Shown here: in pieces, positions 11,524 through 24,122 of the stretch
Numbering within the stretch: position 1 is the first letter of the stretch
Layout of the letters: every line of letters begins with the position of its first letter
Source: Planctomycetaceae bacterium
GTDB lineage: Bacteria > Planctomycetota > Phycisphaerae > Phycisphaerales > SM1A02
Direction: 5' to 3'
Assembly: GCA_027490145.1 (NCBI GenBank)
Contig: JAIXYQ010000015.1
Span: 1 to 64,000, forward strand
Length of the DNA: 64,000 nt
Notes under the pieces: model-generated
What the model was told of the DNA's origin: nothing
Database searches by the model: none
Seen by the model: only the letters and a program-made list of their open reading frames with translations
Position numbers and translations under genes: made by a program

Positions 11524-12726
11524 ATGCCGCTGAGCCCCATCCCCGAGATCCTCGACGAACTCCGTGCCGGCCGCATCGTGGTCATGGTCGACGACGAGAA
11601 CCGCGAGAACGAGGGCGACTTCGTGTGTGCGGCCGAATCGCTGACGGTGGAGCAGGTCAACTTCATGACGCGTGTGGGTGCGGGGTACCTCTGCGTGGCG
11701 CTCGATGGTGCATCGTGCGAGCGCCTGGACCTGGTGCCGCAGGCGGCGATCAACACGAGCCTGCGCGCGACGCCCTTCACGGTGAGTGTGGACGGTCACC
11801 CAAGGCATGGCGTCGGCACGGGCATCAGCGCGCGGGATCGCGTGAAGACGATCCACCTGATGTGCGATCCCGCGTCGCGGCCGGATGACTTCGTGCGCCC
11901 CGGGCACATCAACCCGCTGCGCGCCCGCGACGGCGGCGTGCTCGTGCGCACCGGCCAGACCGAAGGCAGCGTGGACCTGTGCCGGCTCGCCGGCCTGCGG
12001 CCCGCGGCGTGCATCATCGAGGTCGTGCGCGAGGATGGCGAGATGGCCCGCGTGCCGGACCTTGAGCTGCTCTGTGCGCAGCACGGGCTCAAGATGTGCT
12101 CGGTCGAGCAGGTGATCGAATGGCGCCTGCGCCGCGAGAGCCTCGTGCGCCGCATCGAGCCGGTGACGGGTGAACGCGTGATGACGCCCGAGGGTGAGTT
12201 CACGGTGCTCGCCTGGCACAGCGCGATCGATCCCTTACCGCACCTGGCGCTGACCTTCGGTGGTGTCGGCATCCCGGGCGCCGGCGGCGTGGTGCCGACG
12301 ATCGACGATCCGGTCCTCGTGCGCATGCACCGCCGCGATGTGCTCGGCGACATCTTCGGTGCAGCGGCGACCGGCGACCGCAGTGGACAGGACACGATCC
12401 GTGCATCGCTGCGCGCGATCCGCGACGCCGGCCGTGGCGCACTGGTCTACCTGCGCCCCGAGGAAACCGACGACAACCTTCGCTCGCGGCTGCATGCGAT
12501 CCGGCGGGCTGCAGGCGACGACGTGAATTCGCCGGACCTCACCCGCCCGGGCGGGATCGGCGGCAAGGCGCAACCGATGAGCGAGCGCGAGTACGGCATC
12601 GGTGGACAGATCCTGCGCGACCTGGGCCTGTCACGGCTGCGCTTGCTCACGGACCATCCGCGCGCGTTGCCGGGGCTGCATGGGTTTGGGCTCGAGATCG
12701 TTGGTCATCAGGCGCTCGCGCCCTGA
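11524..12726 (+). CDS. ribB: 3,4-dihydroxy-2-butanone-4-phosphate synthase with degenerate GTP cyclohydrolase II domain
   Basis: A 400-residue RibBA-shaped protein. The RibB half (1-205) is well preserved: DDENRENEGDF, FMTRVGAGYLCVAL, RHGVGTGISARDR, RPGHINPLRARDGGVL, RTGQTEGSVDL, converting ribulose 5-phosphate to the four-carbon riboflavin precursor. The RibA half (210-400) keeps its overall length but has lost the three zinc cysteines: where GTP cyclohydrolase II has a C-x10-C-x-C pattern, this protein reads VLGDIFGAAATGDRSGQD, and the RQEGR motif is RPEET. RibB activity is therefore likely and GTP cyclohydrolase activity unlikely, so a separate RibA should exist elsewhere. Divergent from the peptidase gene. 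Confidence 0.88.
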   Translation: MPLSPIPEILDELRAGRIVVMVDDENRENEGDFVCAAESLTVEQVNFMTRVGAGYLCVALDGASCERLDLVPQAAINTSLRATPFTVSVDGHPRHGVGTGISARDRVKTIHLMCDPASRPDDFVRPGHINPLRARDGGVLVRTGQTEGSVDLCRLAGLRPAACIIEVVREDGEMARVPDLELLCAQHGLKMCSVEQVIEWRLRRESLVRRIEPVTGERVMTPEGEFTVLAWHSAIDPLPHLALTFGGVGIPGAGGVVPTIDDPVLVRMHRRDVLGDIFGAAATGDRSGQDTIRASLRAIRDAGRGALVYLRPEETDDNLRSRLHAIRRAAGDDVNSPDLTRPGGIGGKAQPMSEREYGIGGQILRDLGLSRLRLLTDHPRALPGLHGFGLEIVGHQALAP

Positions 12727-12855
12727 GGCGCGCGACCGGCGCACGTGCCGTGTCGAGTCGATCGGACCGGCTCGGCTGGTCCATGCCATTCGCCCGTTTG
12801 CATCGATCCTGCATGGGTGCGCTCCGTATGATCCTGCGACCCCTTGGAGGCTCGC
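12727..12855 (+). promoter_or_regulatory. Probable promoter region of the yceI operon
   Basis: The 129-bp gap upstream of the YceI gene has a TATGAT hexamer at 12827-12832 that could serve as a -10 element, and a GGAGG ribosome-binding site at 12846-12850, five bases from the ATG. No canonical -35 at 16-18 bp spacing is seen, so the promoter call is tentative. Confidence 0.3.
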
Positions 12856-13521
12856 ATGCGCACCCTGATCCTCGTTCCGTCACTGATCGCCGTTCCCGTG
12901 CTTGCCCTCGCGGCGATCGAGCCGACCGCGGCGCCCATCGCGGTGATGCAACCGGTTGCCCTCGCGGCGCAGCCTGATCCAGCGGCGCAGCCCGCTGCTG
13001 CAGCGATGACGCTCGACCCCGTGCACAGCATGGCGCTCTTCCGCATCCAGCACCTGGAGGCGGGGCAGTTCTGGGGTCGCTTCAACGGCGTCGAGGGTTC
13101 CGTGAGCTGGCCGCTGGATGATGCATCCGCGCCGATGATCAAGGCCATCGCGAAGGTCGAGCGGGTCGACACCGGCAGCGAGAAGCTCGACGGCAATCTC
13201 AAGGGCCCGAACTTCTTCAATGCCAAGGAATTCCCGGAAATCGCGTTCACTACGACGGCGGGAACGCGGGTGGGTGAACGCCACTGGACGCTCACCGGCG
13301 ACCTGTCGCTGCACGGTGTGACCAAGCCCGTCACGGTTGACTGCGTCGTGACCGGCGTGGGCAAGGGTCCCACCGGCAAGAAGGTCGGCTTCGAGTGCCA
13401 ACTCACGATCAAGCGCAGCGAGTTCGGCATGACCTGGGGCATCGAGAAGCCACCGAAGGCGTTGGGTGACGAGGTCAAGCTGGTGATCGGGCTCGAGGCC
13501 GACGAGACGAAGGCCGAGTGA
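12856..13521 (+). CDS. YceI family periplasmic protein
   Basis: A 221-residue exported lipocalin-like protein. Residues 1-20 are a signal peptide (MRTLILVPSLIAVPVLALAA), followed by an Ala/Pro-rich linker to about 50 and then the YceI domain: LDPVHSMALFRIQHLEAGQFWGRF, NLKGPNFFNAKEFPEIAF, LTGDLSLHGVTKPVT and FGMTWGIEKPPKALGDEV, all typical. The family binds long isoprenoid or amide lipids and is linked to envelope stress and quinone metabolism. The ATG at 12856 has GGAGG five bases upstream. It leads a four-gene operon with a membrane protein, a LolA-like protein and a TPR protease. Confidence 0.88.
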   Translation: MRTLILVPSLIAVPVLALAAIEPTAAPIAVMQPVALAAQPDPAAQPAAAAMTLDPVHSMALFRIQHLEAGQFWGRFNGVEGSVSWPLDDASAPMIKAIAKVERVDTGSEKLDGNLKGPNFFNAKEFPEIAFTTTAGTRVGERHWTLTGDLSLHGVTKPVTVDCVVTGVGKGPTGKKVGFECQLTIKRSEFGMTWGIEKPPKALGDEVKLVIGLEADETKAE

Positions 13522-13524
13522 CCG

Positions 13525-14562
13525 ATGCTGCCTGAGGTCCTGCTGTATCTCGTCAAGGTCCTGCTGCTTCCGGCGCTCGCTGGATTGGCCGTGGGCGGTC
13601 TCGGCGTGCTCATGGTCGCGCGTCGCGCTGCGTCGGACCGGGCCCGGACCGTGCGCGCTGCACAGGTCGCGCAGGCCTTGGCGGCACCGGTCGCGTTCGT
13701 CGCGAGCTTCCTGCTCGAGACCGGTCCGGTGGGCCTTCCGCCTGCCGAACGATGGCATGTGCTTCCGTACGCGGTCGGTGCCGCAGCGATCGTGGGTGCG
13801 ATCGTGTCAGGCGTGCGCATGGCGTGGTGGGTGCAGTGGTCGATCGTGGTTGCGGTCCTAGGGAGCCTGGCCTGGAAGTTCGTGGTGTTCCCCGCGAGCA
13901 ATCCGTACATCCAGGCGGGGCTGTTCGCTGCGATCGTGCTGGCGGGCCTGCTCTGGTCGGCCGTGGCGCGTGATGCCTGCAGCGTCGGCATGGCGATGAT
14001 GTCGGCGATCGTCTTTGCCGGCATCGGCGTCCTGATGGTGCTGGCCAACTTCGCGAGCCTGGGCGTCATGTCGATCGCTGCCGCTGCCGCCCTGGCGGGG
14101 CTCGGCATGGTGAGCGGCGCCCTGAACCTGCGCGAAGACGCGCAGCTGCGCAAGGCGTCTGCGGCACCTGATGCGCAGCACCGCGTCGACGATGCTGCCG
14201 CGGGTGCGGCCTGTCCCGGCGATGCGGCGTGCGAACTGGTGCCGTGGACCGCTGCCGCGGCGACATCGCTCGCTGCGATCGCCTGCGTGCTGGCCCTGTG
14301 CGGCCATGCCTACAACTACGGTGAGGTCCGCCCGGTGCACTGGGCCGCGATCCTGCTCTCGCCGTTCTTCGCCTTGCTCGTCTGCAAGCCCTGCCTGCGT
14401 GGGGCCAAGCCCATCGTCGGCGTGGCGTGGCGTGCAGGCCTGTGCCTGGTGGTGGTGCTGGCCACGATCGTGAACGCGATCGGCGCAGGTTCCACCGAGG
14501 CCACATCCGATGGCGCGGCCGGCGACGATCCCATGATGGACATGCTCGAGGAGTCCAAGTGA
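13525..14562 (+). CDS. Polytopic membrane protein of unknown function
   Basis: A 345-residue integral membrane protein with about nine or ten hydrophobic segments, for example residues 5-30, 52-63, 80-98, 101-120, 128-147, 150-173, 175-192, 235-255, 264-280 and 288-310. Between the helix groups (about 195-230) there is a hydrophilic loop with paired Cys in AACPGDAACELVP. The C-terminus is acidic (DDPMMDMLEESK) and methionine-rich. No family was recognised. It starts three bases after the YceI stop and its own stop overlaps the GTG of the next gene, so it is co-translated with both neighbours and presumably acts in the envelope. Confidence 0.75.
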   Translation: MLPEVLLYLVKVLLLPALAGLAVGGLGVLMVARRAASDRARTVRAAQVAQALAAPVAFVASFLLETGPVGLPPAERWHVLPYAVGAAAIVGAIVSGVRMAWWVQWSIVVAVLGSLAWKFVVFPASNPYIQAGLFAAIVLAGLLWSAVARDACSVGMAMMSAIVFAGIGVLMVLANFASLGVMSIAAAAALAGLGMVSGALNLREDAQLRKASAAPDAQHRVDDAAAGAACPGDAACELVPWTAAAATSLAAIACVLALCGHAYNYGEVRPVHWAAILLSPFFALLVCKPCLRGAKPIVGVAWRAGLCLVVVLATIVNAIGAGSTEATSDGAAGDDPMMDMLEESK

Positions 14563-15482
14563 CGAGGCATGCGCTTGCGGTGCTCGCGCTCGCCGCGGCA
14601 TGCTCGGCCCGGAACGACCGTGCTCTGGCTCAGATGCCCGGCCAGGGCGGCATCCAGCAGCGGACCGATCCAGCCCCGACCGAACCTCCAGCCTCGGGTG
14701 ATGGGCCGGCGCGCAGCGTGCCGCCGACCGGATCCGCGGCTGCGCCCGAGGCCCAAACTGCGTCTGCCACTCCGGCTGCCGGGCAGGAAGCCATCACGAC
14801 GATCCTCGATGCAGCCGAAGCGGCGGGCGAGCGACTCGACTCGATGGCCTGCACCGTGATCATCGAGAAGCGCGACGCCCTGACCGATGACGTCGAGCGT
14901 CGACGCGGCCGACTCGTGCTGTCGGGCAAGGCTGGCCCGTCGCGGCGCATCGGGCTCCGCATCGACCAGTTCATCGATGGCACCGGCCGTGCCAGCGAGG
15001 ACCGCCGGCTGTTCCTCTACCGCGATGGCTGGCTGATCGAGCGCGACGATGCGCGCAAGCAGCAGATCGAGCGCCAGCTCGTGGCCGAGGGCACCAGCAT
15101 GGATCCGCTGCAGCCGGGCGAGGGCCCGCTGGCGCTTCCGGTGGGGGCTCGTCGCAGCGAGGTGCTCGCGAACTACATCGTGACGGCGACCACGCTTCCC
15201 GAGAGCCCGCTCTGGAAGGATCTGCCGGCGAGCGACGTGCTCTGCCTGGTGCCGCGTCCTTCGACGCCCGCCGCGCGCGATGCGAAGCAGCTCATCGTGG
15301 CGTGGGATCGTGCGACGTCGCTGCCGATCGCCGTGGTGCGCGACTCCACCGAGGGTGATCGCACGATCGCGCGACTGCGTTCGGTCGAGGTCGGGCCGCT
15401 CAATGATGCCGATCGGGCGCTCGTGGACCTGCCCGCTGCGGCAGAAGGATGGACGGTCGATCGCCGTCCGCTCAAGCCATGA
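14559..15482 (+). CDS. Exported LolA-like protein
   Basis: A 307-residue exported protein. The GTG at 14559 overlaps the preceding stop (GTGA) and gives a signal peptide (MTRHALAVLALAAACSARNDRALA). A Pro/Ala-rich linker runs to about residue 75, then a folded domain starts with AAGERLDSMACTVIIEKRDA and contains long alternating strands such as RRGRLVLSG, RRIGLRIDQFIDG, RRLFLYRDGWLIER and LIVAWDRATSLPIAVV. The order and the step from a 'wear your substrate as JRT-type strands' halfway barrel resemble LolA/LolB lipoprotein carriers and related sorting proteins. The assignment is structural inference only. The next gene overlaps by ATGA. Confidence 0.55.
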   Translation: MTRHALAVLALAAACSARNDRALAQMPGQGGIQQRTDPAPTEPPASGDGPARSVPPTGSAAAPEAQTASATPAAGQEAITTILDAAEAAGERLDSMACTVIIEKRDALTDDVERRRGRLVLSGKAGPSRRIGLRIDQFIDGTGRASEDRRLFLYRDGWLIERDDARKQQIERQLVAEGTSMDPLQPGEGPLALPVGARRSEVLANYIVTATTLPESPLWKDLPASDVLCLVPRPSTPAARDAKQLIVAWDRATSLPIAVVRDSTEGDRTIARLRSVEVGPLNDADRALVDLPAAAEGWTVDRRPLKP

Positions 15483-18079
15483 CGCGAGACCGTGTCGTGA
15501 TTCGGTCGGTGGTCGTGGTCGTCGCCGCGATGCTGGTGGCCACGCTCATCGTGACAGCCGTGGCGAATGCCCAGGATGGCGCTGCACCGCCGCGCCGGCA
15601 GGACCCGACCATGATCCCGCGCTCGGCGGCGAGCCGAGCTGCGCTGGATGCCAAGGCCGCCACACCCGATGCGCTCAAGGACCTGCGTGTGCGCTACGGC
15701 GCGTGGGAGCAGGGTGATCTCGACACGCCGCTGCGTGCGGCCGAGGCGGCCGTGTGGGCGTGGCGCTGGGATGAGCCCGCGCTCGCCGATCCATCGGTTC
15801 CGGCGGTCCTGCGCGCTCGCGCGCTCGTGCAGCAAGGCGCATGGGACCGTGCGATCGCTGCGCTCGTCGACGATGCATCGCCGCGCGCGACGGCGCTCAA
15901 GGGGATCGCGCTCGCGGGTGCGGGCAAGCTGGCCGAATCACGCGCTGCGCTCGAGCCGCTCATGGCCGAGCCGATGCCCGCGGTCGTGCGCACGCAGGGG
16001 CAGCGCGAGCTGGTGCTCGCCAAGGCCGAGGCGCTCGAGGCCTGGTCGATGACCGGGCGCGTGGCGCCGCAGCTGTACGAAGCCGTGATCGAGGCGCTCG
16101 GTGCCGCTCGGGCGCTCGACCGGACCGACTGGGAAGCGATGCTGCTCGAAGCGCGCATCCTCGCGGCGCGCCACAACCGAGCCGATGCGTGGAAGGCGCT
16201 CGCCGATGCACTCGCGCAGCACCCGCGCCTGGCCGAGGCCTGGCGCATGCGCGGCGAGCTCAGCGCGGGTGCGCTCGAGCAAGCCGATGCACTCGCGATC
16301 GCCGAGGGAATCGATGCCTTCTCGCCGGCGTGTGCCGCGGCTGCGCTCCTGCGCGCGCGCACGGCGCTGATGCAGGACGATGCCGACGGCGCCGAACCGA
16401 TGCTGCGCCAGGTGCTCGCTACCGCGCCCACACAGCCGGATGCCTTGGCGTACCTGGCCGCCATGCACGCGGTGCGCTTCCGCCCCGAGGCGATGGAGCA
16501 GGCCCTCGCCGATGCCGATCGCGCCGCACCCGGCAGCCCGCACGCACCGCTTGAGGTGGGCCGCATGCTCTCGCGTCGCCGTCAGTACGAGGACGCTGCG
16601 GTGCTGCTGCGCCGGGCGTGGGACCGTGCGCCGGAGTGGAGCGAGCCCCCGATGGAACTCGGCCTCATGGACATGCAGTCGGGCGAAGATGCGCGCGCGC
16701 TCGAGGCGCTGCGAGCGGCCGTCGAGCGCGATCCCTTCAACGTGGGGGCCACGCTCAGCCTTCGCTTGCTCGAGGACATGGCGCCATGGCCCGTGCGGGA
16801 GGGCCGCCACTTCACGCTTCGTTCGCAGCCAGGCATCGATGATGCGATGGCCGATGGCATGCTCGCGCAGCTCGATGCGATGCACGAGGAGGTCTGCGCG
16901 CGGCTCGGCCACGCACCGTCGCGGCGCACGCGCATCGAACTCATGCCCGACCACGAGTGGTTCGGGGTGCGGCTCACCGGCCTGCCGGCGATCCACACGA
17001 TCGCGGCGTGCACCGGCCCGGTGATCGCGATGGAGGTGCCGCGCGAAGGCAGCCGCAAGAAGCACCTGGGACTCTTCGACTGGCTGGATGTGGTGCGCCA
17101 TGAGTACGTGCACACCGTCACGCTCTCGCAGACGCGCAACCGCATCCCGCACTGGATGACCGAGGCGATCGCCGTCGACCTGCAGCACAAGCGCCGTGAC
17201 TACAAGGAGTGCCAGATGCTCGCGGCGGCGCTCGAGGGGGGCACGCTCTTCGACTTCGATTCGATCCTGCTGGCCTTCGTCCGGCCGGTGAAGCCGACCG
17301 ATCGCGCGCAGGCCTACGCCCAGGGCCACTGGTGGGTCGAGTTCATCCGCGAGGCCTGGGGCGACGAGGCCCTGCGCCGCATGCTCGCGCTCTATGCCGA
17401 GGGCGCCACCGAATCGCAGGCGCTCGCGCAGGTGCTGGACGTGTCGAAGGAGCAATTCCTCGAGCGGTTCACGCCGTGGGCACGCACGCAGGTCAAGGCG
17501 TGGGGGCTTGCACCGGAGCCGCCGCCCGATGCGCTGCTGGGCAAGGACCGGGTCGAGCCCGTGAGCGACAAGGAACTCGACCTCCTGCTGCGTTCGCACC
17601 CGGAGCATCCGGACCTGCTCGAGTTGGCCGTGCGCCGGCGCACCGAGCGCGGCGAGGGCGACGCGCCTGAGGTCATCGAACTGCTCGAGCGCTTGTGCCG
17701 GGCTCGTCCGGTCGATCCCTTCCCGCACCGAAAGCTCGCGGAGGTGGCGCTGCTGTCGGGGCGCGATGCCGAGGCCGTGCCGCACCTCGAGCGGCTCGAT
17801 GCCGTCACGGACCGCGAGAACTCCTATGCGATCGAGCTCTCGCGCATCGCCCGCGCGGCGGGGGATGGTGCGCGGGCGGGGAACCACATCGAACGCGCCG
17901 TGCGCATCAATCCATTCGACCCGTCGCTGCGCGAGCTCGCGGCGGCGACGCAGATCGAGGCCGGAAACCTGGCGGCTGCGCGGGTGCACGTGGTCGCGCT
18001 GGGCATCCTTGAGCCGGATCGCGAGCAGCACAAGCGTCGACTCGTCCGCCTGGATGAATTGATCGCGAAGGCGCCCTGA
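15479..18079 (+). CDS. TPR-repeat protein with gluzincin (peptidase MA-like) protease domain
   Basis: An 866-residue envelope protein. Residues 8-32 form a signal peptide or signal anchor. Degenerate TPR repeats fill roughly 60-440 (for example LAYLAAMHAVRFRPEAMEQA and YEDAAVLLRRAWDRAPEW). The protease domain follows at about 450-690 with HEYVH at 541-545 and a downstream glutamate E562 in WMTEAIAV, the HExxH plus Glu zinc site of gluzincins of the peptidase MA group. More TPRs close the protein. The ATG overlaps the LolA-like gene's stop (ATGA). As the last gene of the envelope operon it may process or monitor cell-surface proteins; the substrate is unknown. Confidence 0.78.
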   Translation: MTRDRVVIRSVVVVVAAMLVATLIVTAVANAQDGAAPPRRQDPTMIPRSAASRAALDAKAATPDALKDLRVRYGAWEQGDLDTPLRAAEAAVWAWRWDEPALADPSVPAVLRARALVQQGAWDRAIAALVDDASPRATALKGIALAGAGKLAESRAALEPLMAEPMPAVVRTQGQRELVLAKAEALEAWSMTGRVAPQLYEAVIEALGAARALDRTDWEAMLLEARILAARHNRADAWKALADALAQHPRLAEAWRMRGELSAGALEQADALAIAEGIDAFSPACAAAALLRARTALMQDDADGAEPMLRQVLATAPTQPDALAYLAAMHAVRFRPEAMEQALADADRAAPGSPHAPLEVGRMLSRRRQYEDAAVLLRRAWDRAPEWSEPPMELGLMDMQSGEDARALEALRAAVERDPFNVGATLSLRLLEDMAPWPVREGRHFTLRSQPGIDDAMADGMLAQLDAMHEEVCARLGHAPSRRTRIELMPDHEWFGVRLTGLPAIHTIAACTGPVIAMEVPREGSRKKHLGLFDWLDVVRHEYVHTVTLSQTRNRIPHWMTEAIAVDLQHKRRDYKECQMLAAALEGGTLFDFDSILLAFVRPVKPTDRAQAYAQGHWWVEFIREAWGDEALRRMLALYAEGATESQALAQVLDVSKEQFLERFTPWARTQVKAWGLAPEPPPDALLGKDRVEPVSDKELDLLLRSHPEHPDLLELAVRRRTERGEGDAPEVIELLERLCRARPVDPFPHRKLAEVALLSGRDAEAVPHLERLDAVTDRENSYAIELSRIARAAGDGARAGNHIERAVRINPFDPSLRELAAATQIEAGNLAAARVHVVALGILEPDREQHKRRLVRLDELIAKAP

Positions 18080-19126: not shown

Positions 19127-20089
19127 TCAGGCTTCCTCGGCACCGCACCACACGAACGATTCCTTGAGGATCGCGTGGTAGGGGTGCAGGTCGATGTCCG
19201 TGATGCCGGGCAGTGCCCCGACGCGTTCAGCCAGGGCCTGCAGGGCGCGACCGTCGGCGGCGCACATCTCCATGACCACCGGGTTCGGTCCCGACACCAT
19301 CGCGACGAAGCGCGGGTTCGCCACGACCGTGGCGGCCGCACACGCCTCATCCGTCGTGACGCTGGACCGGATGAACACGCAGCCCGAGGCGCGCATGCCG
19401 ATGCGGCTTGGTTCGGGGAAGGCCAGCATGCGGATCAGCTGGTCGTCGATGAGGTGACGGAAGCGCTCGGCCGCGGCGGTGGAGGAGATGCCGGCGACCT
19501 CGCCGAGCGTCGCGAACGTGGCGCGGCCGTCGCGTTGCAGCTCGCGGATGATCGCGCGGTTGACGCGGTCCAGCGGCCGCCCGCCGCGCCAGTGGTGGCG
19601 ATGGGACTCGCTCGTCTCCTGCGTGCCGAAGCTGTCGAGCACCAAGCGCACGTCGACGACCGGGGCGAGCGGATCCCCGCCGAGATTGCGGTCGATCAGC
19701 GCACGCAGGGCGGTGCCGTTCACGACCGAGCCGTGGGCCACGAGGCCGTCGGCCGGGCCGTTGATGGGGCCGGTGGTCGCGATGAAGTGGAGCCAGTCGA
19801 GCGAAGCCAGCCGACGACCGAGTGCCTCGGGATCGGGTGACTTCACGAGCATGACCGCACTGGCCGAGAGGCCCGCCCGGTCCAGTGGCATGAACGCCCG
19901 GATGCGCACCGCATGCTCGGCGATGAGCCGGTTCAGGCGCCGGCTGATGTTGGCTTCGGAGCAGTCAAGGGCCTTGGCCAGGTCGCGGCCCGACGCACGT
20001 GGGTCGGCCACGAGGCGGTCGATGAGCGCGCGGTCGGCCTGCTCGAGGTCGGGCAGGCCGCCTTCATTGTGGACCGTCCGCGTCAGCAT
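19127..20089 (-). CDS. Tandem-duplicated Lrp/AsnC-family regulator
   Basis: A 320-residue protein made of two Lrp/AsnC units. Each has a winged helix-turn-helix followed by a ligand-binding-like domain: HTH 1 at about 15-65 (LEQADRALIDRLVADPRASG and CSEANISRRLNRLI) and HTH 2 at about 172-222 (LDRVNRAIIRELQRDG and ISSTAAAERFRHLI). Ordinary Lrp proteins have one unit of about 150 residues, so this is a covalent dimer. It stands directly upstream of the dehydratase gene. The ATG at 20089 lies at the centre of an 18-bp palindrome, suggesting self-repression. A GAGG stretch 8 bases upstream of the ATG is the only ribosome-site candidate. Confidence 0.82.
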   Translation of the reverse strand: MLTRTVHNEGGLPDLEQADRALIDRLVADPRASGRDLAKALDCSEANISRRLNRLIAEHAVRIRAFMPLDRAGLSASAVMLVKSPDPEALGRRLASLDWLHFIATTGPINGPADGLVAHGSVVNGTALRALIDRNLGGDPLAPVVDVRLVLDSFGTQETSESHRHHWRGGRPLDRVNRAIIRELQRDGRATFATLGEVAGISSTAAAERFRHLIDDQLIRMLAFPEPSRIGMRASGCVFIRSSVTTDEACAAATVVANPRFVAMVSGPNPVVMEMCAADGRALQALAERVGALPGITDIDLHPYHAILKESFVWCGAEEA

Positions 20090-22316: not shown

Positions 22317-24122
22317 ATGGACCCGCAGCGCAAGCGGCCCGGCTTCCTCAGCCTTCCCGCCATGCTCCACGAGAACGCCTACGTCGCGTTCGTGTTCTTC
22401 TCATGCTGCGACATCGTGCTGACCTGGGTCATCCTGCGCAAGGGCGGAACGGAAGTGAATCCCGTGGCGGCGGTCGTCATCCGCGACTGGGGCCTTCCCG
22501 GTGCCGTCGGCTTCAAGTTCAGCCTGACGCTCTTCGTGATCGTGCTGTGCGAGGTCATCTCGCGCATCAGGCCGCGCACGGGCCGCGCGCTGGCGATCGC
22601 GTCGGTGCTGGTGTCGGCATCGCCCGTCGTCTGGTCCGGGGTGCTGCTCACGCGTCATGCCCTGGATCGCGACGATCCCGCGCCGTCCGCCAGGGTGGGT
22701 CGCGTGCAGCCACTTGCGCATCCGACGCAGCCCAACATCGTCGTGATCCTGGCCGATGACCTGGGCTGGGGCGAGCTCTCGTGCCAGGGCCAGCGGCGGT
22801 TCGCAACGCCGTCCATCGATGCCGTGGCAGCCGAGGGCGTCCGGTGCGTGCAGGGCTACTCGGGGAGCACGGTCTGCGCACCGAGTCGCTGTGCGCTCCT
22901 CACCGGCCTGCACATGGGCCATGCCGCGGTGCGCGACAACGTCGAGCGGCCCAACCCATCGAAGGACGAGTTCGGTGGACAGGCCCCGTTGGCGGCATCG
23001 GCGGTCACCCTCGGCGAGCGACTGCAGCGCGCGGGCTACGAGACGGCGTTCATCGGCAAGTGGGGACTCGGCACCACGGGCACCGAGGGTGATCCGCTCG
23101 CCCAGGGCTTCGATCGCTTCTTCGGGTACCTCTGCCAGCGGCACGCGCACAACCTGTATCCCACGCACCTCATCCGAGACGGCGGACGCGAGGAGTTGGC
23201 GGGCAACGACCCGTCGACGCGCGCCGAGTCGCGGTACGCGCCCGACCTGATGGCCGACGAGGCCGCGGCCTTCGTGGGTTCCCGCGGGCCGGATGCGCCG
23301 CCGTTCCTGCTCGTCTTCGCGAGCCCGCTGCCACACCTGGCGCTGCAGGCCCCGCCTGATGAGGTGGCGCGCCACGCGCTTGCCGACGATCCGCCGTACG
23401 AAGGCGGCAAGGGCTACCTGCCGTGCACGCAGCCACGTGCGACCTACGCCGCCATGGTGACCCGCTTGGACCGTCACGTCGGCGCGATCGTCGATGCGCT
23501 GAAGTCGCGCGGGCTGTGGGAGCGCACGATCGTGGTGTTCACGAGCGACAACGGCAGCACCTTCGGCCTCGGTGGCTACGACCCGGCGTGGTTCGACGGC
23601 ACGGGCGGCCTGCGCGGGCACAAGACGAATCTCCACGAGGGCGGCATCCGGGTGCCGTACCTCGTGCGGTGGCCCGGCGTGACGTCGCCGGGGAGCACGC
23701 TGTCGATGCCGGTGACCGGATGGGACCTTGCGCCCACGCTCTGCGCCGCCGCCGGAGTCGCGATGCCCGTCGCTGAGACCGATGGCCTCGATCTGCGGCC
23801 CTGGCTCGCTGCGGCCGGTGCGCCGATCGGGCCGACGCCACCGGATCGTGCGCTGTATTGGGAGTTCGCCGGCGGCGGTGGCCAACGGGCGATGCGCCTG
23901 GGCGACTGGAAGGCCATGCAGAAGGGCATCCGGAAGGATCCCGATGCACCGATCGAGCTCTTCGATCTGGCGAAGGATCCGGCGGAGACGACTGACGTGT
24001 CTGCCGCGCACCGTGAACTCGTCAGCGAACTGCGCCAACGCATGATCACCCAGCGCACGCAGGCCGAAGAACCTGCGAGCGACCTGCCGTGGGGCGATCC
24101 ATCGCGCATCGACCCACGCTGA
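22317..24122 (+). CDS. Sulfatase fused to an N-terminal DUF5658-like membrane domain
   Basis: A 601-residue protein in two parts. Residues 20-125 form a small membrane domain with about three helices and the motif GGTEVNPVAAV, as in DUF5658-type proteins. From about 137 (QPNIVVILADDLGWGELS) the rest is a type I sulfatase: CAPSR at 187-191 supplies the cysteine converted to formylglycine, with GKWGLG, SDNGST and HEGGIRVPYLVRWPG further on. Sulfatases normally carry their own signal peptide; here the membrane domain seems to export the catalytic domain and tether it. Likely substrate is a sulfated polysaccharide or sulfated glycan ester. One continuous frame spans both parts, so this is not a sequencing break. 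Confidence 0.85.
   Translation: MDPQRKRPGFLSLPAMLHENAYVAFVFFSCCDIVLTWVILRKGGTEVNPVAAVVIRDWGLPGAVGFKFSLTLFVIVLCEVISRIRPRTGRALAIASVLVSASPVVWSGVLLTRHALDRDDPAPSARVGRVQPLAHPTQPNIVVILADDLGWGELSCQGQRRFATPSIDAVAAEGVRCVQGYSGSTVCAPSRCALLTGLHMGHAAVRDNVERPNPSKDEFGGQAPLAASAVTLGERLQRAGYETAFIGKWGLGTTGTEGDPLAQGFDRFFGYLCQRHAHNLYPTHLIRDGGREELAGNDPSTRAESRYAPDLMADEAAAFVGSRGPDAPPFLLVFASPLPHLALQAPPDEVARHALADDPPYEGGKGYLPCTQPRATYAAMVTRLDRHVGAIVDALKSRGLWERTIVVFTSDNGSTFGLGGYDPAWFDGTGGLRGHKTNLHEGGIRVPYLVRWPGVTSPGSTLSMPVTGWDLAPTLCAAAGVAMPVAETDGLDLRPWLAAAGAPIGPTPPDRALYWEFAGGGGQRAMRLGDWKAMQKGIRKDPDAPIELFDLAKDPAETTDVSAAHRELVSELRQRMITQRTQAEEPASDLPWGDPSRIDPR

Follow-up and report, generated by a model that had tools for sequence, protein, structure and literature searches.

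Do four closely packed genes of a lake-dwelling planctomycete (order Phycisphaerales) encode one envelope pathway, or do they bring together units that are elsewhere separate? The window analysed here, a stretch of 64,000 nucleotides, carries four plus-strand open reading frames (ORFs) in a single run (12856-18079), called below gene 1 to gene 4. The initial annotation had described them as genes for a YceI protein, a membrane protein, a LolA-like protein and a tetratricopeptide repeat (TPR) protease of the gluzincin type, and had proposed one dedicated pathway that handles a lipidic or lipoprotein cargo and processes it at the surface. The positions and the spacing of the genes proved exact and the four assignments were confirmed, that of gene 3 at the level of the fold. 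The single pathway stood in part: genes 3 and 4 are linked by adjacency and by fusions, but the set of four is not a conserved unit. The unit worth following is a LolA-type carrier with a protease, rather than the four-gene set. The reading that we favour, and to which we give about even confidence, is that a LolA-type carrier and a periplasmic TPR-protease would act on a shared cargo, and that a YceI-gene 2 pair has joined them in the genus of the window. The placement of lipoproteins in the outer membrane of planctomycetes is poorly known, and their sorting in Phycisphaerae is not described in the literature searched; gene 3, which standard sequence models overlook, is a candidate for the LolA that has been missing from an entire class.

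Folds of the gene 3 and gene 4 products

In the product of gene 3, a signal peptide and a Pro-rich linker precede a domain some 240 residues long. Its AlphaFold model, obtained from 65 sequences, has a predicted local distance difference test score (pLDDT) of 90.4 and a predicted template modelling score (pTM) of 0.85. When this model was compared with the PDB using Foldseek, LolA structures filled ranks 1 to 22, with E-values down to 1e-11, and RseB started at rank 23. A second aligner gave LolA ranks 1 to 12: the LolA of F. tularensis is superimposed on 183 of 185 residues (Z 17.9, 2.7 A, 11% identity) and the LolA of E. coli bound to LolC has a Z of 17.6. The scores of the other folds are lower, with 14.3 for RseB, 13.0 for MucB, 12.1 for the LolB of P. 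gingivalis, at most 10.7 for proteobacterial LolB and 10.1 for LppX. An Arg or other basic residue in the beta2-beta3 loop is a feature of LolA, and an exposed Leu in the beta3-beta4 loop a feature of LolB (excerpt of PMC13103446). With the loop assigned from the strands of the model itself, not by superposition, the corresponding residue (model residue 64) is Arg in 55 and Lys in 7 of the 65 rows of the alignment; the LolB-type Leu occurs in just 4 of these rows. At the level of the fold, an open beta barrel with a helical lid, the predicted structure confirms that gene 3 encodes a LolA domain, so that the initial annotation withstood its own structural check.

The sequence of gene 3 gives no comparable signal. 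A single-sequence search against Pfam, NCBIfam and the sequences of the PDB detected nothing, and a profile of 33 homologues recovered only one chance match among the PDB sequences. When Pfam was applied to these 33 homologues, LolA was matched weakly by six and LolA_like by five (best E-value 2.6e-4), and the window protein matched neither. After the null searches, the claim of a kinship with LolA by sequence was dropped and the fold claim alone was retained.

RseB gates the protease DegS, and the product of gene 3 might be a sensor or adaptor of the RseB/MucB type, which would sense a lipid or a misfolded lipoprotein and license the protease without carrying anything. After LolA, RseB and MucB are indeed among the nearest relatives of solved structure, and an adaptor would show the same coupling to a protease and the same fusion as gene 3 (see below). 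However, LolA is clearly nearer by Z and by rank; gene 3 stops after one domain, whereas the RseB and MucB chains have a second domain at the C-terminus and are 260-290 residues long in the structures matched; no sigma or anti-sigma gene was recognised among the nearest neighbours of the operon; and gene 3 is also present where the protease was not found. We regard such a sensor as unlikely and keep the carrier as the preferred role of gene 3.

In the product of gene 4, Pfam detects TPRs and a Peptidase_MA_2 domain, the latter at 29.9 bits, slightly below the cut-off of 32.4; the TPRs flank the gluzincin domain on both sides. The residues H541, E542, H545 and E562 are invariant in the 33 aligned homologues. 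More widely, HE[YF]xH is kept in all 80 gene-4 loci and the motif TEA follows it at a constant spacing in 79 of them. The model of the protease domain (pLDDT 89.1) finds its closest folds in the M9 collagenases of Vibrio (Z 16.1, 231 aligned residues, 3.9 A) and in the M30 protease lugdulysin (Z 16.0), followed by M1 peptidases (Z about 13). A relative of BepA is not indicated, because no M48 model matches by sequence among the Pfam matches up to an E-value of 1; the lack of M48 among the fold matches was given no weight. The N-terminus has a hydrophobic stretch resembling a signal peptide. On these features gene 4 is an intact-looking gluzincin, for which proteolysis is predicted.

Linkage, distribution and proposed role of the pair

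Two samples were used: a named set composed of the window and 80 loci (L numbers) retrieved by gene 4, and a table of 101 genomes (G numbers), the window's and those of 100 relatives. Statements on neighbouring genes refer to loci with working gene calls; direct homology searches served for the remaining loci. In the named set, gene 3 is adjacent to gene 4 and co-directional in 59 loci, adjacent and divergent in six, fused to it in two and missing in six with at least 1 kb upstream, the eight others being uninformative. The two genes are thereby adjacent or fused in 67 of the 73 informative loci, across Phycisphaerales. At least one of the two genes is recorded for 95 genomes of the table: they are adjacent on one strand in 59, otherwise placed on one contig in five and on separate contigs in 16, and 15 genomes have one gene only. 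Where both are on one contig, they are adjacent on the same strand in 59 of 64 relatives. Exceptions are seen in family f6, where one or more genes lie between gene 3 and gene 4 (G096, G098, G081).

Genes 3 and 4 are fused into a single ORF in two genera, represented by G009 (L092 = L149; L092:5709-9488) and G050 (L114 = L172; L114:2029-6030). In both fusions the gene-3 domain is followed by a linker, which is Pro-rich in G050, and by a gene 4 that lacks its own signal peptide. They are on separate branches of the gene-4 tree, L172 being sister to a clade with separate genes (support 1.00) and L149 lying outside. The fusions come from contigs of metagenome-assembled genomes and an assembly slip is possible for either one, but is unlikely for both because the two cases have different linkers. 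The order-wide adjacency and the two fusions on separate branches support, by sequence comparison, that genes 3 and 4 belong together.

The outer neighbours differ from one family to another and the pair stays: the window's family has ribBA and ThiC, f2 has RuvX-like genes and f5 has others. This bears on a second alternative, according to which gene 3 simply serves Phycisphaerae as a housekeeping LolA, an unrelated protease, gene 4, stays next to it by inertia, and YceI-gene 2 is a passenger. The class-wide presence of gene 3 in about a single copy agrees with it, as do the failure to find gene 4 in the other orders searched and the fact that much of the neighbourhood (argS, M42, ribBA, ThiC) is also conserved in the window's family. 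It is opposed by the two fusions on separate branches and by a pair that stays together although the genes on either side differ from family to family, so that we consider this explanation rather improbable and retain a coupled carrier and protease.

Gene 3 is present in 92 and the gene-4 protease in 84 of the 101 genomes, gene 3 with about one copy per genome. With the gene-3 profile, genomes across the order are matched strongly, as are ten that belong to other orders of the class (E-values from 1e-15 to 1e-30), and matches in the rest of the phylum are weak (36 bits or less); in total, 55 of 392 genomes are matched at an E-value of at most 1e-5. The protease domain, used as a single-protein query, has matches throughout Phycisphaerales. 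The curated Pfam model of LolA matches in one of 61 relatives, and LolA_like (PF17131) in six, one of them above the cut-off. LolCE-like permeases are matched in all 31 genomes, always under the cut-off, and in family f4 a gene for a LolD/MacB-like ATPase is located upstream of gene 3, with ruvC, ruvX (named by eye) and a gene for a small membrane protein in between. The distribution of gene 3, the rarity of LolA and LolA_like matches, the LolCE-type matches and the ATPase neighbour in f4 make gene 3 the leading candidate for the LolA of the whole class. Since it is found in other orders where the protease was not, gene 3 is probably the LolA-type carrier of the class, and the protease an order-level partner acquired later. 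In eight loci from other orders (among them L206 and L208-L212), gene 3 is beside a flavodoxin gene in six cases and near a gene for a HAD hydrolase in four.

Several points weigh against a LolA-type carrier coupled to this protease. The 65-row profile of gene 3 compared with E. coli LolA has an hhalign probability of 0.1%, which corresponds to no sequence similarity, so that the kinship of gene 3 with LolA is one of fold. The fold matches of the protease domain are good but not specific for one peptidase family (Z 16). Genes 3 and 4 are apart in family f4. Gene 4 was not found in the ten gene-3-bearing genomes of other orders, in a search without an internal positive. Finally, the true LolA of these bacteria could belong to another LolA-fold family, such as PF17131.

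At the core of the system, a LolA-type carrier (gene 3) would share its cargo with a periplasmic protease of the TPR-gluzincin type (gene 4). The gene 3 product would be exported, in about half of the relatives as a predicted lipoprotein: by one procedure, 30 of the 61 N-termini of gene 3 that have a hydrophobic stretch contain a lipobox-like Cys (17 with a stricter pattern), compared with 4 of 65 for gene 4 (none with the strict pattern). In the window, the motif AAAC of gene 3 is a possible lipobox by the loose pattern only. The open barrel may hold a cargo that is acylated or hydrophobic in some other way, with lipoproteins of the outer membrane as the most likely case. The TPRs of gene 4 may dock onto gene 3 and its cargo and recruit it, and the protease may then cut, mature or destroy the protein part of the cargo, or clear failed cargo. 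The earlier proposal that this processing takes place at the surface found no support and the evidence points to the periplasm: because the fusions set both proteins on the same side of the membrane, it is strongly suggested that genes 3 and 4 both act in the periplasm. The association of gene 3 with one protease offers a direct way into the system, and the two natural fusions define a compact, assayable protein.

The LolA of Caulobacter is a bifunctional carrier-insertase (excerpt of PMC11784454), and a similar double role would fit gene 3 by analogy. A more specific and more tentative version of our reading is that in Phycisphaerales a highly diverged, often membrane-anchored LolA serves as carrier and insertase, with a dedicated collagenase/M30-like TPR-protease that cuts lipoproteins at the hand-off, be it to mature them, to free them from the membrane or for quality control. 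Concerning the cargo, 64 loci extend 3 kb or more past gene 4, and in 22 of them gene 4 is followed by a gene for a secreted protein with a dockerin-like C-terminus and usually by genes for FG-GAP proteins (e.g. L078:10917-14468). Such genes are missing directly downstream in the window's genus. FG-GAP and dockerin-ended secreted proteins are possible candidates for the cargo.

The YceI-gene 2 pair

The YceI domain of gene 1 is detected by Pfam with 125 bits for a cut-off of 23.7 (E-value 4e-36, residues 52-215), and a simple hydropathy count shows a hydrophobic N-terminal stretch at residues 3-21. The same type of count predicts ten transmembrane segments in gene 2, which belongs to no family of Pfam or NCBIfam. 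Ubiquinone-8, among other ligands, has been found in YceI lipocalins, and in many Gram-negative bacteria YceI is paired or fused with a cytochrome b561, as in the lipid-peroxyl detoxification by BcnA-LcoA (excerpt of PMC9113575). The identification of gene 2 as such a cytochrome b561 (LcoA), whose two haems are bis-His coordinated, was ruled out, as gene 2 has neither the Pfam match nor the bis-His pattern; in nine aligned gene-2 proteins, read by eye, the only fully conserved His is that of a [RK]WH motif. Two other leads were set aside: Cys motifs that are confined to the genus and missing from the homologues L077, L094 and L115, and a FUSC match in one gene-2 homologue (E-value 0.005) judged to be chance.

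The initial annotation had suggested looking for the four-gene order in other Planctomycetota. The order YceI-gene 2-gene 3-gene 4 was seen only in the window's genus, and most genomes are without gene 2, which is present in 11 of 101 genomes (YceI in 84). In the sister lineage formed by G013 and G055, YceI-gene 2 lies beside gene 3-gene 4 in divergent orientation. In other lineages the pairs are not neighbours, and G009 and G042 keep gene 2 with YceI, away from gene 3. In the gene-4 tree the divergent loci of G013 and G055 (L135, L128) and the window's genus are sister groups, at a fully supported node; the simplest history is therefore a single entry of YceI-gene 2 between ribBA and gene 3, followed by an inversion in one lineage. 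The four-gene order is a genus-level joining of a mobile pair, YceI and a membrane protein, with the persistent gene 3-gene 4 pair. Without gene 2, a different YceI adjoins gene 3 in a distant family (L083-L085, L144, L171, L174, L182), so the neighbourhood of YceI and gene 3 seems to have two separate origins. In one locus of that distant family (L171:4731-7845, minus strand), three YceI matches adjoin the gene 3-gene 4 pair.

A four-part pathway, in which YceI, gene 2, the LolA-type carrier and the protease perform successive steps on one lipidic cargo, draws on the compact gene run of the genus and on the YceI genes beside gene 3 in the distant family, but is very unlikely given the rarity of gene 2, its company with YceI away from gene 3, and the presence of YceI close to gene 3 in just 11 of 58 informative loci. 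We infer instead, by analogy, that YceI-gene 2 may be a separate envelope module, with a logic resembling that of BcnA-LcoA, now joined to the carrier-protease pair. The YceI protein and the protein with ten transmembrane segments would probably handle a quinone or another isoprenoid in the envelope and need not belong to the same pathway as genes 3 and 4.

Features of the locus and comparison with known systems

Gene 1 and gene 2 are separated by 3 bp, and overlaps of 4 bp are found between gene 2 and gene 3 (GTGA) and between gene 3 and gene 4 (ATGA). Congeners have the same gene order, with about 75-97% identity for genes 2-4; to judge from the sequence, the coding status of the four ORFs is not in doubt. 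A scan of the locus for promoters and terminators gave only chance-level signals.

Coordinates of the features of the four-gene locus in the window
Feature	Position	Strand	Basis
Likely ribosome-binding site of gene 1 (GGAGG)	12846..12850	+	Sequence read, just 5' of ATG 12856
Gene 1, YceI-family (lipocalin-like) secreted protein, 221 aa, ATG start	12856..13521	+	Pfam PF04264; N-terminal signal-like stretch
Gene 2, polytopic membrane protein, 345 aa	13525..14562	+	Count of transmembrane segments; no family from Pfam/NCBIfam; homologues adjoin a YceI gene
Gene 3, LolA-fold putative carrier, 307 aa, GTG start	14559..15482	+	AlphaFold and PDB comparison; reading of the N-terminus
LolA-fold domain, modelled part of gene 3	14754..15479	+	AlphaFold, fold comparison
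Gene 4, signal peptide, N-terminal TPRs, gluzincin domain and C-terminal TPRs, 866 aa	15479..18079	+	Pfam TPR, Peptidase_MA_2; domain model
Gluzincin (MA clan) domain, modelled part of gene 4	16736..17563	+	Structure model
HEYVH zinc-binding/catalytic motif of gene 4 (H541, E542, H545)	17099..17113	+	Conservation in homologues
E562 of gene 4, presumed third zinc ligand, 17 residues past H545	17162..17164	+	Conservation in homologues

Upstream, a ribBA-like gene (11524-12726) is separated from gene 1 by 129 bp. It scores 352 of 569 bits, well short of the curated values for bifunctional RibBA, and is weaker in the GTP cyclohydrolase II half, whose activity may be lost. Downstream, 63 bp separate the operon from a convergent dehydratase gene. 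Two further genes of the window were noted: a double regulator of the AsnC/Lrp type with two helix-turn-helix copies per protein (19127-20089), which adjoins a hydroxyaspartate/threonine dehydratase-like gene, and a sulfatase with a membrane domain (DUF5658) at the N-terminus, an unusual domain order (22317-24122).

As for known systems, BcnA-LcoA resembles the first two genes in the pairing of a YceI gene with that of a polytopic membrane protein, but gene 2 does not match cytochrome b561 and has a single His that is conserved among distant homologues. In the putative export cluster BBJ23-29 of Borrelia, LolA-fold and TPR proteins are also brought together in one envelope cluster; the excerpt of PMC13078400 describes an ABC exporter and an Omp85 protein and mentions no protease, whereas the present locus has a protease and neither of the two others. 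BepA, the M48-TPR protein of E. coli active in the quality control of LptD and BAM, is likewise a periplasmic zinc protease with TPRs; gene 4 differs from it by the lack of an M48 match in Pfam, by a fold nearest to M9 collagenases, M30 and M1, and by TPRs on both sides of the protease. In RseB and MucB, control over a periplasmic protease pathway is exerted by a LolA-like domain, but gene 3 lacks their second C-terminal domain, has no recognised sigma or anti-sigma neighbour and has lower Z values with them. LolB shares the fold of the superfamily and is acyl-anchored, as many gene-3 proteins apparently are; the fold similarity is however lower and the LolB-type Leu is rare. The closest known system is LolA, with the same fold across the whole domain, the basic residue between beta2 and beta3, the export and about one copy per genome. 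Unlike LolA, gene 3 of the window has no sequence match to E. coli LolA or to the Pfam LolA model, has a longer N-terminal Pro-rich linker and, in about half of the relatives, a lipobox-like Cys, and is tied or fused to a protease. A carrier-protease coupling of this kind was not found in the literature searched, including that on planctomycetes; if true, it would join lipoprotein transport with proteolysis, as a Lol pathway with built-in proteolysis that is new with respect to the literature found.

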